Part shown: one piece after another, positions 4,101 to 13,100 of the stretch
How positions within the stretch are numbered: position 1 is the first letter of the stretch
Layout: every line of letters starts with the position of its first letter
NCBI GenBank assembly: GCA_003598025.1
Contig: QZKH01000004.1
Location: forward strand, 1-48,932
Direction: 5' to 3'
DNA: 48,932 nt
Source of the DNA: Candidatus Omnitrophota bacterium
GTDB lineage: Bacteria > Omnitrophota > Gorgyraeia > Gygaellales > Profunditerraquicolaceae
Translations under genes and position numbers: made by a program
Notes under the pieces: generated by a model
Seen by the model: only the letters and a program-made list of their open reading frames with translations
Told to the model about the DNA's origin: nothing
Database searches by the model: none

Positions 4101-7100
4101 GCCTTCAACAATTCCTGCAGCAGAAGCTTTAAGAATAGAGGGAGATGGTCATATCGTTTGGTTGGTTGATGCGAAAGGCAATCAGCTTGCTCAAGCAGAG
4201 ATTGAACCATTTAGAGATGGCATTGCTATAAGGCTTATGGAGGCAAAGGTCAGGGGTTTTGGATACGGGCAACAGCTTTTAGACAAACTGATGGAGAGGT
4301 ATAGGGTTATATATACAGGTAAGGATGGCGATCCAATCAGCGCTGATGCCCAGAGAATGATTTACCGTATGGCTGATAGCAGCCGCTATGCAGTTGAGGG
4401 GACAGGAGATTTTGTACGTAGGAGCCTTGCAGGTACACACAGGTTTTTAGATAAAAAACCAGCAGAGCATGTTAGGATTTCTTTAGCTCCTATGGGAGCA
4501 GTTCCTACTAATTTCAGGTGGGGACAGACTCCTAGAGAGAAACCAATTTCGATCGATATTAGTTTATGGACACAGAAGACCGGAAGAGTCTTCTTCCCTC
4601 GTCATACGTCAGTAAACGCTGATCAAACATATGCAAGTGATGGTTTGGTAGGAGAAGACATGTCTACACTGGAATCAAATCGAACTGTGGAAGTTCCGGC
4701 AGCACAGGCAGCTGAGGTTAATGCCAATAGCCCATATAAAATAGTCCGCGAGGCTTTTACCAAGCAGATCGGTCGCATTGATGATATGGTCGATGAACTG
4801 CGCGCCAGGCGCGAATTATTGCCGTCATTAGGTGGCGGAATTATAAAGACATTCCTGGGTTCCATGATGCTGAAGAATAGAATATCCAAGCTAAATGTAG
4901 TCAAGTCTTCATACGAGGATGCAATATCTGACTTAAATGAAGAATCTGCCAGCCAGCATCTTGTCGGTTGGTTAATGGGGAATCCTTTGATGTTCTCGGA
5001 AGATTTCCAGGAGGCTGCGAGGTTTAAACCTGAGGATTTTGTTGGAAGAAGGTCATGGGAAATAAGAGGTTCGCAATTTTTGAGTTATGCAGCTTCCGCT
5101 TTAAGAGGTTACGAGCTGAAAGAGAAAGAAGTAGAAAAATTGATAGGAGCGTTAAAGGGAAGAGTCGGTTCTGGAGTGATATCGCCGGAGAATGTCAAGT
5201 TTGCTTTTAGTAGGGCTTATGGCCTTTTATCTAGGCAAAGGATGTTTAATAAAGAGCAAGCATTAGGTATGATTGACACTTATGAAAGGGATTTGATGGC
5301 ACGAGGAGTAAACGTAGATAGTTTACGCCAGCAAGTCTTAGAAACAAAAGGATACTCTTTTGAACCTTTGGTAAAAATAATGAATCCATTATTACAGATG
5401 GCAGCAGAAAGGCGCAAAGAACAAGAGTTTGTAATAGGTGGTAAAACTTTGTTAGGCCAGAATGCGGGAATAATTCCGGTAGAAGTCGTTGATGGCGAAA
5501 CGCTTTCCAATACAGCAACGGGTGAAACAGTCAGTTCACAAGCGCAGCAAGATGGAGTTAAAATAAGCAGAACGGCAAATCATATGTATATACCTGACGA
5601 AAACGGAAATCTGTCAATCGGCTATGATTTAACCGGTGAATTTAATTTATGGTCAGGCAACCACGAGTTTTACCATCCTATACTTGCCAAACTTGCTAAT
5701 GGCGAGGGCAAGGTTGACTTGGATAAAGTCGCTCAGCTTCCGGATGCTGATAAGCAGAGAATCATGCGTTTACTCAGGAAGGTTTCAGAATTAACAGGAA
5801 TACGCGTTGAGGACCTAGATATATCTATGAGAGAGATGGGGGTAAATGAGCTTATTGATAGGACCATAAGTACCATGGATGCACTGGAAGCCTTAAAAAG
5901 CAATCCCGGATTAAGATTTCTGGACGGTGACATTTATTCCGATAGGCCAGAGTTTGGCTCGTTCTTTTATTATTTGCGTAATAAGGTATTAGGAGTAAGC
6001 ACTCGAAATGTAAATACGCTTATAAAGAGAGCCTCGGCTTTAAGCGATGAGGAGATGCTTGAACGGATATTTAATAATGATAGTTTTGCCAGGCAGTTTG
6101 CTTTATCAAGAAAAAAGACGGAAACTCCAATACAGCACCACCCAGGGTTAGCCACTCAACCTGCTATGTCAGCACCTACGGGTTCTGTGAATGATGATGG
6201 GAAAACTATGGGAGAAGACCTGTTGAAATCTCGTAAGGTAGAAAATTCTTCACCCGTAGTTTTACCACAAGGTAAGATTAGTTTACCTGGATTGCTACGA
6301 GCTGGTGAAGTCGCAACTTTTAACGTGCCAAACATAAGTTCGCCGATTACTAATGAAACCGGAGCGCGTGCTCCTCCGGTTGCTGTACCGGAGATTGGAA
6401 ATATCAACGCTATAACTACCCCTATCGAAGCTGCTAATATCCAGAATATACTTCCTACAACAATCGCTTTACCTATAAATAAAGCAGAGAAAGTCTTATT
6501 ACCTCATGTTTCTACCGAAAAAGAATTAACTGGCTGGAAGAAAGCTGTTACAAGTTTAGCCGGGCCGCTGGCAAGCCTTGGTATGGCAGCTGGTTTAGGG
6601 TACGTGGCTTATAAAGGTCTGCCAGTAAACAGTGTTACAGATTATTATGCAATAACTCTTGCTGCTATATCCGGCTTACAGGCTGTCGTTGATACAATGC
6701 CGCGGGAAGCTACTGTCAGCAGTGTGGGAGTGAGTAACAGCAGATATGCCCAGGCAGTAACTGCCTTGATAGCACCTGTTTTGTTTGCCCATGAAGGAGC
6801 GCATTATTTAGCTAACCGTTTGCTTGGTAACCCCGCAAGAATGCATTTGTTCATGAAGACAGATGCCGGATTAGATCCAGATGTAAAGTTAGCTAATGAT
6901 GGCTTGGCTGCGATTAGGGCAATAAGAGGTTTGGACCAGGAGAAAGTTTCTTCTCCTGTTAACCGATCAGAGATACTCGCCGCAGCATTGGGCGCTATAG
7001 CTAAGACAGAAGACATTCCTTCAGCAACTGAAGTCTCCTCACCGATAAAATTCCAGCAAGACACAGAAGATGGCCTGGAGATAACTGAGATTGTTGATAA

Positions 7101-10100
7101 GAGATATAGCACTGGTTTAATTACCCCGGATCAATATACATTCACAGTAATAAACCACGTGCAGAGATTGACGCAAGATAATATTGGTCTTAAGGAATTA
7201 ACCGGTTATACGCTGCATGGAACATCTGTTGTTAATTTACGCAACATAGCAAGAGAAGGCAAGCTTAAGACTCATCCAGGATTCTCGGGTGCTGAGGCAC
7301 CAGGAGTATTTGTTACCGTCGTAGATAGGAACACCAGACCAAGCCAGTTGTATTTAGGTAGAGGCAGGGATTACGGCTCAGTACCGGCATTATTAAGGAT
7401 CCGCCATCAGGATGTAATGGATTATTTTGCCAATAGAGGAATTGAAAAAGTATTCATACCCGGAGGCGCGAATGCTTCTCAATATACCATAGATATACCT
7501 GCCCAGTTTATAGATTATTATGATTTTACAAGGGACAAGTGGATACCTGTACAGAATCATCTGTTGGGTAACATGGATACCTATACTTTAGCAGGTTATG
7601 ATTATCAGGTTGAAGCTATTGAGGCTTTTGAGGGAGCCGGCCAGCAGGGTATAGCTGATAAGTTAAAGACCCTGCCTCCTTACGCAGAAAACAGCTATAA
7701 CAGAGTAAGGGCAAGATTACAGGAAACAGGCTTAAAGGGCGATAGAGTAGATATACTGGCTCTTGCTAAGACTCTTGAAGTAGTAGCCGGCAACCAGCAA
7801 AAACAGGCTGCTGAAGCTGTTTCATCTCCGATAGACGCAAATATATTTGATTATGCAAAGAAAGTCAGAGAGGTAGCTAATTTAAGAGAACAAGTGAGAG
7901 TTTCTGGCGCCTTGCTTGAGAGCTTAGAATCTCATCATAGGGATCCTGCGGAGATAGAGCGTACCAAGGAAGTTTTGGCTGATTTTTCAACGCAGTTAGC
8001 TGATGCAGAAGCTGTTCTTTTAGCTGAGGCTGTTCCGAATCTTTCTATAGATATGGCTTCGCTTTCACCGGTAACAGTTGAGCAGATAGCAGTATTAAAG
8101 TCACTTAGCAATGAATACCAACAGATAGTATCAGCAAAGCCTCAAGGCTGGCAGGAACAGGCTATAAATGTTACAGATTCATTGTTAGCTATCGTTGATC
8201 CTTGGATTACAAATAGTGACAACCCCGAACTTAATATTATAGGTGATAGCATAGGCACAGGCGGTGATCTTGCGGTAATCGATATACGCAACAAAGCAGC
8301 CGCACTTAAGGCAACCAGCGAGAATATGGGTAAGGCTGGCAGAGATACTAAGGATTATGAGTTTGCTCAACGTATGTTTGATGCTAGCGTAGAAGCGCTT
8401 AGTTCCGTATTGAACAAAACAGATGTATTATTAAATAGCCAAATATCTGTACCGCTCAAGATTCAAAATGATGGCAGAGTTGCTTTTGACCCTGCTTTTG
8501 TGACTAGAGTTTTAGTGGGTATTGCAGAAGCTACCCCGAATATTACAGGCGCATCAGTCAGCAGCCCGTTAATCAAAACTAATATTGCTTTGGATTTGCC
8601 ACAAACCCCAGCAGTCAATATCCAAGCCATACCTGCAGCTAAGGGAATTTCCTTAGACAGCCTTTTGGCATCAAGTGTCCCGGCTGAGTTAATAAAGACC
8701 CCAGTCATAGCTCCAATAGCAGTCAGCCCTATTGAAGAAGCGCCATTTAATCCTAATACTGCAGGTACATTAGGCTTTGGCATGGGCAAGACCCAGGCCT
8801 TACCTATAAATGTAGCAGGTGGTAGTGGTTCTGGAAATGGCGGCTCCGGGTTTGGCACAGGCTCAAACGGTTCTGGTAATGGCAATGGCAACGGCACAGG
8901 TACAGGTAATGGAGCCGGCGGCAGGCTCATAATAGAAGTAATGCCGGTTATACCTAAAGATTTGGGTTCGGTTGTAGGAGGCCTTTTAACCTCATCAGCC
9001 ATTGGAATGGCAGCGGATGCGAATAATCAGGACATGAGCACGTTCGGTGTCCAGATGCTTGGCCAGGCCGGTGGTATTAACGTGGCGGCTGCGAATCTCC
9101 CATTCGCAGGTCGTGGTAGTGAAATAAGCGGGAGAGACAATCAATATAGCAGCGCAATTAGTATCGTCAATGGTTTATCCAGAGATGATACAAGGTTTGC
9201 CCAAGGCTTGAATGCCGAAGGCAAAGGTTCAATAGTTGTAACAACAACTAAACAGGAACAAACGAATGCATCACCTGCAGCAAAAGATGTTGCAAACGTA
9301 ACAGGTTTTGGTAGCAAAACCAGTGGTTGGGCGAGTGCTACCTTAAAAGGTAAAGTAAGTTTAATAAAACCCGCATTAAATAACAGAATCCATGAATGGC
9401 TTCATGGATTATTCCTTATAAATCCAGTTGAAACCATAAGTGCTAGAGGTCCGCCATATCAAGTCACAAGGTCACAAGGTCACAAGGTCACAAATAATGT
9501 AAATTCCGCTTTAATCTCACCTATTGAGTTAGGAGCAGTGGATTTTGCTGCTTCGTCCGCTATTCAAGATATTAACAGGGAATCAACAGATAGATTAGTT
9601 CGGCCGCAGATTCCTTCCGTGGCAGGAGAAGATGCGGCTATTAACCCTCGTTACGCTCAGGATAATCCCGAGCGCAGTCGAGGGATTGTTGTTAATGAGG
9701 GCTCTTTGACGAGAGCCCCCCTCCAGGGAATGACCCCTCTTGCTGGAGCCCTCGTAACAACTACACCCCAAGTCACAAGGACACAAGGACACAAGAACAC
9801 AAAATTATTAACCAAGCCGCTGTCTGTTCCTACCGTGGCAGGTGAAACAGAAAAAGCGGCATTGTTGTTATCAGAGGCTGTAGAGCCCCATAACCTCCAG
9901 GGGACTGACCCCTCTGTGGCCTCTGATACAACTGTAACAGGAGGTGCAAAATGGTTCAGCTCAATTTTAACGAGATTGAATTTGACCACCTTGTTGAGTT
10001 CATCAAAGATAGGACAGTATTTGCAGCAGCTAGGCAGAACATTACAGGCCATATGCGCTTATTCCTCATCTTCGAAGATAATGGCAACATCTACACCCGT

Positions 10101-13100
10101 AACGGTAGAGCAGACAGCTGGGAACAGCTATATGGCGAGGATGCAAGCATCATCGCAGGTAAGATCGAAGCAGCAAAACATAACCACATCCCGGTATACA
10201 GAATCAACGGCTCGCATAATTAATGGTGGTTCGGCAGAAGCCAATGAAGAACTCGCCACAGGAGGTTTACGAGCCGTTGCTTCTTCCCCTATACCGTTAT
10301 TTAAGGATCAATATTCTCAAGGAGATCTTATTGATCCTCTGTATTGGGGGACAATTGAAAGATTTGTTTTACCGCTTCTGGATAGAGCTAAGCAGGGCAG
10401 GATTTCTTCTCAAGAGATAAAAGATACAGCAGCGCAGGCTGTAAATACTCTTCATGACCTTTTAGCAGGAAGGACCGAAGAAGAGGGCGAGCGCCAGAAA
10501 TTAGCCAAAGCAAGAGATTCTATCATTGCTGATATTCAAAATGGCTCTGACCAGCAATCGTTTGCAAAGGTAATGGCTGCTTTTATAGGTGAACAGGCTA
10601 AAGCAAACGGTAATGGAGGGTACGCCAATGTTTATTTCCCGAGAGATATGGCTCTGTGTTTCCCTGCAGACGCTGTTGTAGATTTGCTCAATGACGATAT
10701 GCCTAGCGCAGGGCTCTATTATATAAGCAGAAATAATTTTGCATATTATTCATGGATGAGCAGCACAATAGATTCATTAAATCATACCTCTCATGGCACA
10801 AAAGAACTATTAGAAGGTTTTATCAGAGCCATAAAGGAAAAGATGGAGAGCGATGCCGGATTTAAGGCAGCGATTAATAAGATAAAAGAAGAATTAGATG
10901 CATTAGGCTATGGGAAAATGAAAAAAGTGCGCTTCATCGATTCCGGTTTTAAGACATTCCCTCTGATGATGCAGGCACTTTTTGGTATATTCTACCCGCA
11001 CATTGAAACCAAAGGCTTAGTATTAGCTAGTTCGGTTCCAAATTTCTTACCTCAACTGGATAAGAAAGATTGGCGCCAGAAAGTCCGAGCTGCTATTGAA
11101 TCCAATCCTTCATTAGCAAAGCACGCTGTTCCTAATCTTGGTACAATGGAAAGCGCAGAAGATTTCTTTAAGCATCCATTTAAATATGACGGCGGCATGG
11201 TTCCTACTTCTGCGGCAGACCAGTTATTGTCATTCTGGTATCAGTTTGCTTTTGTGGCAGGTGCCATATTCTACGACAGGTTGGTAAAAGGATTAATTGA
11301 TGACTTGGAGAAGCATGGCGTTGAAGAAGAACAGGCAAAAGAATTAGCCCACAACGCTGTTAAGGATACCTTAGGTGTAGTAGATATTGAAGATGAGCAA
11401 ACCGGTGTAGAAACTGCGGTATTAGCCGTGTCTACAACCGAAGATGATAGTGAAGAAAGTACGGCTGATGATTTAGTAGCCCAGGTTGAAGCAAAATTAG
11501 CAGAAGAGGTGCCTGGGTTTAGCCTCTCAGAGGACACCAAAGAAGATTTGGCTGGTTTGGCTAAGGATAAAGCCACGGCAGATTCTACTATTGTTAAGGC
11601 AGAAAAGGCCAGGGATGATAAAAAAGACGATGATCAGAACAAAAAGCAAAGGTCGTTGTTAGCTTATATTGGCAAGATATTAAGGAATAAATATTTCAGA
11701 GTAATTGCCATAACCGTTCTCTTATTAGTAATCTTCCTTAAATCATGCCTGCCAATGACAGTAGATAGAAATAATGGTAAGGCTACCGTAGAACCTAAGG
11801 CACCACCTGCGGTTGTATCAGTTTTACCTGAACCTGTTACGCCTGTCCAGGTAACACGCACAGTCCCTATTTCTTATGAAGATAAGGTTGATGAATACGG
11901 ACATGTGTATCATTATGATCCGATAAGTGGAAGATATTATACGGATATCGATGCCACATGGACAAGCAAGAACCCTGCTAAATTTACCACTGGAGGTATT
12001 GCCAGGGGTTCCAGAAACGCTGGCGTGGGAAATGAATACCCTGCGTTGTATTTTGATGGTGTAAATCAGGTGGTGAACGATACGGCGAATATTGATAATA
12101 ATTCGGTTCCTCCGCAGTATATCACTCATGTTGGAAACAGATTTTATGTTGGCGAGGTTTTACCAAGCACAAAGACAGAAACCGTTATTGAAGAAGGTAA
12201 TGCCCCATCTTCAGAAGAACCGTCAGTAATCCCGCCATCCGAACCTCAGCCGGAAGATGGCACAACAAATACAAATCCTGAGACTGATTCGGAAACACCA
12301 GTTCATGAGAATACCAATAATTATTTATTACCTATATTATTAGCCGGTGCAGGCGCTGCACTTCTTGGGTTGGCTGCTATACGTAGGGTATTTAAGAATA
12401 AATCTGCTCCAAAGGCAGCTGAAAAAGGCCAAGAAGAAGCTGCAGCCAAAGGACCAGCTGTGACTTCTACAACTGCAGCTACAGCTGATTCAGCCTCAAC
12501 AGATGATTCCGCAAAAGAGTCCCCGGTTACAACCGCAGCCGAAGGCGATATTACCAGTGAAGAAGCCGCTGAAGAAGAAGCCATAAAAGCAGAACAGGCA
12601 GCAATTAAGGCTGTTGCCGATAGAGAGTTAGCCGAAGAAAGAGCTATGCAGGATGCGCTTGAAGCAGGCCCTGTAAGCTTGCCAAAAGCCAATGTTCCTA
12701 ACGCCGTTAAGAAAAGTTTAGATAAGATTAGGAGAGCTAGGACAGAGGAAGAAGTAGAAAACGCCAGAAAAGCAGCATTGCAGTATATTAACGGCAGAAA
12801 AGGACAGGGAGTAAGCGCAAAGAATAAAGCTTTGACTGAGGCAGTGGTTAACGAGGAAGCAGATAACGCCATTTTAAGATTAAGGGCTAAAGCCAACGGT
12901 ATAAAGACCAGGGCTGAAGAAGCAAAGGCAAATGCCGCCATATCTGAAATAGCAAATAGAGCCAGGGATTTTGCAGCAGCAATAAGCATCGATGAGCTCA
13001 TTAGATTGCATACTGAAGCCATAGAAGCAGTAGGGGCAGCTTACTTAAGAGGTGATATTGATGAGGCAACAAGAAGCAACCTCTTAGCAATGCTTAAAAA

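Follow-up and report, generated by a model that had tools for sequence, protein, structure and literature searches.

An out-of-frame small gene behind a conserved two-hairpin element in a giant gene of Candidatus Omnitrophota

The nested small gene and its two reading frames

The stretch of DNA analysed here, called the window below, is one whole contig of a Candidatus Omnitrophota genome (QZKH01000004.1 of assembly GCA_003598025.1; G000:C4, 48,932 bp). Its forward strand holds a single open frame without stop from position 1 to 48930 (frame 1, 16310 codons), which is open at both contig ends and represents part of a giant open reading frame (ORF). Nested in it, on the same strand and in frame 3, we found a small gene at positions 9951 to 10223, with 90 codons open from the ATG at 9951 to a TAA stop at 10221 to 10223. 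Relative to the small gene, the giant frame (codon starts at 1 mod 3) lies in +1, and it reads the small gene's bases 9952 to 10223. A Shine-Dalgarno (SD) sequence, AGGAGG, lies at 9939 to 9944 on the forward strand, six bases ahead of the ATG. The SD, the ATG and the 90 open codons agree with an initial annotation made from the sequence, which had also described the giant-frame text over the small gene as rich in Ser, Thr and Gln, as its translation confirmed.

Outside the giant frame, no other forward-strand ORF of the window reached 60 codons and had an SD. When the giant gene was shuffled synonymously 100 times, the mean number of SD-bearing out-of-frame ORFs was 0.17 for at least 60 codons and 0.04 for at least 85 codons, and the small gene is thus more than chance. 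Scans for sigma-70 promoters and terminators at the locus gave signals at chance level only. No conserved terminator was found 3' of the nested gene, where hairpins were present in some relatives only.

Homologues of the small protein were detected by protein search in 47 of 108 genomes, from 31 genera of the same Omnitrophota family (best E value 8e-43), with identities from 73% down to about 35%. A profile search extended them to 72 of 384 genomes across the phylum, and the contigs carrying homologues in a public scan were those of Candidatus Omnitrophota. Two loci filed as Woesearchaeota and Nitrospirae (L158, L169) carry an Omnitrophota giant-gene region with the small gene and are probably misbinned. 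The family copies inspected lay on the same strand, inside a long ORF and in the +1 relation, never in +2. Exceptions in the family were three weak matches that lie in frame within ordinary proteins (G014, G015), and a copy at a contig start, where the open frame had only 112 codons (G035/L166). The +1 nesting was also observed in loci from the public collection and in five further families of the order. In one relative (G069) the giant ORF is complete, with 30,185 codons and the nested gene at codon 6019; in four others (G049, G051, G075, G036) the nested gene lies at codons 5261 to 8222 from the ORF start. Some giant genes carry several nested paralogues, some of them adjacent, in one frame relation (G343:C114, G213:C6, G046:C64, G105:C6, G014:C23, G041:C31).

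The start signal was conserved together with the protein. SD and ATG were kept in 52 of 54 nested family copies, giving the gene a translation start signal of its own, as the annotation had proposed. The gap between them was 5 bases in 42 copies and 8 in 9 copies (together 51 of the 52), and 3 to 6 bases in free-standing homologues, which are described below. Since the two nested gaps differ by a step of three, the giant frame is preserved.

We then compared selection on the two frames. Over the 54 nested copies, no stop was observed in the giant frame, against expectations of 254 from redrawing codons at giant-gene usage and 43 from permuting the codons within each gene; the copies are related to each other, so that a product of their stop probabilities is not a p-value. 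The +2 frame of the same copies contained 402 stops. Each of 20 free-standing homologues had 1 to 9 stops in the frame equivalent to the giant frame, indicating that an open giant frame is not inherent to the family. In the small frame, identity at the three codon positions was 0.65/0.74/0.41, and the ratio of nonsynonymous to synonymous substitution rates (dN/dS) was 0.03 to 0.13 in close pairs. As judged from these ratios, the small protein is under strong purifying selection. The giant frame gave dN/dS above 1 in close pairs, as expected if constraint acts on the other frame alone, and its amino-acid identity over the small gene was 0.32 versus a null of 0.29. The giant frame over the nested gene is held open and is otherwise almost free text. 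The initial annotation was therefore correct that both frames are kept open, and relatives display the reverse of a pattern in which frame +1 is conserved and frame +3 lacks homologues: one conserved protein lies in the small frame, while the giant frame is not conserved.

The upstream two-hairpin element

Directly upstream, a conserved two-hairpin element was identified at positions 9816 to 9934 of the forward strand, ending just 5' of the SD (about -55 kcal/mol; 89.7 bits with a covariance model). Among 11 relatives, compensatory changes were observed at 25 of its 42 pairs, a level reached by 0 of 500 shuffles, although the structure was guided by folds of the same sequences, which somewhat favours this result. 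Slid structures gave a much lower covariation score. The element is thus a structure 5' of the start that is kept by compensatory change. Consistently, 140-base stretches 5' of nested genes had a mean fold z of -4.0 versus -0.3 for background. The second hairpin holds an invariant CCUCC complementary to the SD, which could hypothetically mask its GGAGG.

The covariance model matched 57 elements in 42 of the 108 family genomes, nearly all near a nested gene, and the element was also present at nested genes in other families of the order. It was absent from class-level nested genes and from free-standing homologues, and an Rfam search with the element and its flanks gave nothing at gathering score. 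The initial annotation had described a palindrome resembling repetitive extragenic palindromic (REP) sequences. A palindrome does lie directly 5' of the small gene, but its identity as REP did not hold, since REP elements occur in many dispersed extragenic copies and this one is a covarying element found at one locus of the window's genome, together with degenerate copies. The annotation had also suggested a search for other copies of the gene behind the same palindrome: the window's genome has one copy of the small gene, and the element copies of relatives lie nearly all close to a nested gene.

Of the degenerate copies, one at 9645 to 9763 (forward strand, 36 bits) has no small gene behind it and is interrupted by a REP-like sequence (CCGAGCGCAGTCGAGGG), and the other, at 9603 to 9644 (forward strand), is a weak fragment of 25 bits. 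Short pieces resembling 9770 to 9810 recur elsewhere in the window's genome.

Host gene, free-standing relatives and fold

The giant ORF belongs to a kind described before in Velamenicoccia and other Omnitrophota, which ranks among the longest types of gene known in bacteria. Such ORFs exceed 20 kb in many genomes, have few domains, are 'poorly conserved' and yielded peptides in V. archaeovorus (PMC10066038). We observed alike N-termini (FKAWIRVVAFIVVAVFLPEQVAQA...) in the giant ORFs of five relatives (G069, G049, G051, G075, G036), and their giant genes therefore look like one orthologous gene. The 5' end of the giant gene of the window's genome likely lies at the end of contig C9, which shows the same N-terminus; C9 would then join C4. 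A riboswitch for cyclic di-GMP (c-di-GMP), c-di-GMP-I-GGC (Rfam RF03167, gathering score reached), precedes the giant ORF in all five relatives whose ORF start was analysed. It lies 0.1 to 1.1 kb 5' of the ORF in four of them; in G051 the distance to the start of the stop-to-stop frame is about 3.2 kb. In the window's genome, the giant N-terminus is likewise preceded by a riboswitch of this class (G000:C9:137258-137350). Control of the giant gene by c-di-GMP is probable; such riboswitches occur several times per family genome and are not exclusive to it.

Within the giant frame, SSP[IVL] motifs recur with varied codons, at 27 sites in the window (6247 to 48838) and 45 sites in the complete gene (G069:C4:118493-209047), between enzyme-like modules such as response regulators, subtilase, M48 peptidase, guanylate kinase and HAD. 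The first SSPI 3' of the nested gene is at 10282 to 10293 (forward strand, by giant-frame translation). These motifs may be protein-level linkers or polyprotein processing sites. We rejected the idea that GGASSPI linkers are decayed SD and start sites, because they use varied codons. A second linker, R[AG]PP, recurs at 6367, 9445, 15079, 21568, 31498 and 33322 of the window, and is also found shortly 5' of nested genes in several relatives.

Free-standing homologues of the small protein were found in other orders of the class. Nineteen of 20 are flanked by mraZ and rsmH, with an ftsL-like gene and ftsI next in line; the neighbours were named from recognition of the MraZ, RsmH and FtsI sequences, and RsmH was confirmed by Pfam in order relatives. 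They appear as an unnamed protein of 90 to 100 residues in the division and cell wall (dcw) cluster of several Omnitrophota families (L204-L228, L235). With scores of about 37 to 54 bits against the nested-gene profile, they are homologous to the nested genes, and the small protein is by this homology part of an older family that also occurs free-standing. The window's genome and 12 relatives in the order have mraZ next to rsmH, with no small gene in between. Three genomes (G217, G303, G362) hold both kinds. In a tree, the free-standing genes formed one clade (99/74) except for one long branch, and the nested copies fell on several sides of it, the underlying alignment being short and poorly resolved.

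The predicted structure of the small protein, which the annotation had suggested as a check, was a confident fold. The AlphaFold2 model (predicted local distance difference test score, pLDDT, 87; predicted template modelling score, pTM, 0.77) shows a small alpha/beta protein with five strands, one long helix and a last strand. The small protein had no match in Pfam, NCBIfam, PHROGs, PADLOC or PDB sequence profiles, and no relative was found in the viral contigs searched. Fold searches gave no clear match either, with best Foldseek E values of 0.24 (PDB) and 0.01 (viral set). VIA matches reached a Z of at most 5.2 (polo-box, PAXX) and were treated as a common arrangement.

Interpretation of the locus

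We consider it likely, with good confidence, that an ancient gene with initiation of its own is nested out of frame at this locus. Some ribosomes would start at the internal SD and make the small protein as a separate product, using either the giant mRNA or a transcript that is processed or internal. Other ribosomes would read through in the giant frame, which would yield a low-complexity linker there. The two-hairpin element probably controls or protects initiation at the nested start, and the nested product may be co-expressed with the giant surface protein. The position of free-standing relatives between mraZ and rsmH and the riboswitch before the giant gene suggest, more weakly, that the nested product most likely acts as a small regulator linked to growth or division and is produced along with the giant surface protein. 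Among the roles first proposed, which also included a passenger, regulator seems possible, and nothing favoured antitoxin. A bolder scenario, which we put forward as a tentative one, is a phylum-deep case of dual coding: a protein of the division cluster would have lost its operon position and persist only as an overprinted gene within a giant surface-protein gene under c-di-GMP control. A covarying RNA element that giant-frame ribosomes read through would switch internal translation of the small protein, and growth or division would thereby be coupled to production of the giant protein.

Several observations weigh against parts of this interpretation. In the closest relative (L145, 72% identity), neither the element nor an upstream fold was detected, so that the element is not indispensable, and one genome has an element inside a giant ORF with no recognisable small gene behind it (G007:C17:46487-46601). 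The riboswitch lies more than 15 kb 5' of the nested gene, and joint control of the two is assumed. Function is read from the gene neighbourhood of relatives, family and fold searches having given no match.

Other explanations account for part of the same evidence. The initial annotation had proposed capture of a cassette made up of REP and small gene. In such a capture, a mobile REP-like palindrome would have been inserted in frame together with a small gene, as with Rickettsia ORF palindromes but with a gene of its own. Element and gene do travel together, tandem copies and paralogue arrays occur in one giant gene (G343, G213, G014, G041, G105), and the giant-frame text 3' of the nested gene cannot be aligned between relatives. 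However, the element is almost confined to this locus and not dispersed, nesting occurs in the inspected relatives of the order with one frame relation in all copies, small genes are deeply diverse in the tree and belong to an older free-standing family, class-level nested genes lack the element, and duplication within the giant gene explains the arrays. We thus regard recent capture as unlikely, and insertion at a remote date as possible. SD-like sequences and strong hairpins in coding regions stimulate frameshifting, as established for dnaX and prfB. Both are present here, and no stop interrupts the giant frame on either side, so that giant-frame ribosomes might slip into the small frame at the SD-like GGAGGTG and terminate after another 90 codons. 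The giant protein would then be cut short, its tail formed by the 90 conserved residues. No conserved slippery sequence was found between SD and ATG (GTGCAAAATG, GTGTACCATG, GTGTGCTATG, GTGCATCATG), the ATG is kept at start-codon spacing in nearly all copies, and free-standing family members have a start of their own, all of which makes a programmed frameshift very unlikely.

We give a similarly low probability to an addiction or immunity module that would tie the cell to the giant gene, either as a type III-style toxin-antitoxin pair of RNA and small protein or as an immunity protein against a toxic part of the giant protein. A structured RNA, sometimes in tandem, directly 5' of the small gene resembles type III modules, and the model has a weak structural likeness to two immunity proteins (Z 3.5 to 3.8). 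Such Z values are non-specific, though, no family or PADLOC match was obtained (for toxins of the ToxN/CptN/TenpN type, no match in Pfam, NCBIfam or PADLOC and no clear fold match), and no RNA element accompanies the free-standing relatives in the division cluster. It is still less probable, indeed extremely so, that the small gene alone codes and the giant ORF is here an artefact of assembly or annotation. Its residues over the small gene are almost unconstrained, but the 54 copies, which come from independent assemblies, contain no stop where 254 or 43 would be expected, free-standing homologues have 1 to 9, SD-ATG spacings change in steps of three, and giant-ORF peptides are reported for a related organism (PMC10066038). 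Finally, an accidental small frame in a giant frame that alone codes has next to no probability. When the codons of the window's small gene were permuted, the +1 frame stayed free of stops in 1.8% of trials, but the homologues down to about 35% identity and their dN/dS of 0.03 to 0.13 refute a chance ORF, as do the conserved SD and ATG and the free-standing members.

Nested genes as such are already known, and what is new here is a nested gene with a conserved upstream RNA element. In Bacillus subtilis, comS encodes a small regulator in a different reading frame inside the very long gene srfAB, and the two are expressed together (PMC12915044). It is the nearest precedent for the nested gene, for which a regulator role is our proposal. 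Whereas comS, at 46 residues about half the size of the small protein, is known from one group, the small gene spans an order or more, and it comes with a structured element upstream, free-standing relatives and a host gene of up to 30,185 codons. REP and Rickettsia palindromic elements resemble the two-hairpin element in being palindromes read in frame within a gene, but the latter is not dispersed, is found at one locus with one gene and shows compensatory changes. Riboswitches, attenuators and other cis-regulatory leaders share its covarying hairpins ending just 5' of the SD and its anti-SD-like CCUCC; unlike them, the element matches no Rfam family and lies inside the coding frame of another gene. 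Our literature searches, whose scope excluded bioRxiv preprints that may report parts of this, found no mention of a nested gene in Omnitrophota giant ORFs. The available part of the account of these ORFs mentions neither the nested gene nor the conserved N-terminus, the c-di-GMP riboswitch or the SSP linkers (PMC10066038).

Judged by sequence, the dual coding at this locus is real and ancient. The 54 homologous copies, together with matched free-standing controls, offer a clean case on which dual coding can be tested. To our knowledge, few long out-of-frame overlaps outside viruses have been conserved over deep time, and the cases claimed in bacteria are mostly young or weakly conserved. The open giant frame over the nested gene would also provide independent evolutionary evidence for translation through Omnitrophota giant frames, and the nested gene, the RNA element, the riboswitch and the conserved N-terminus may serve as landmarks in genes that have been described as poorly conserved.

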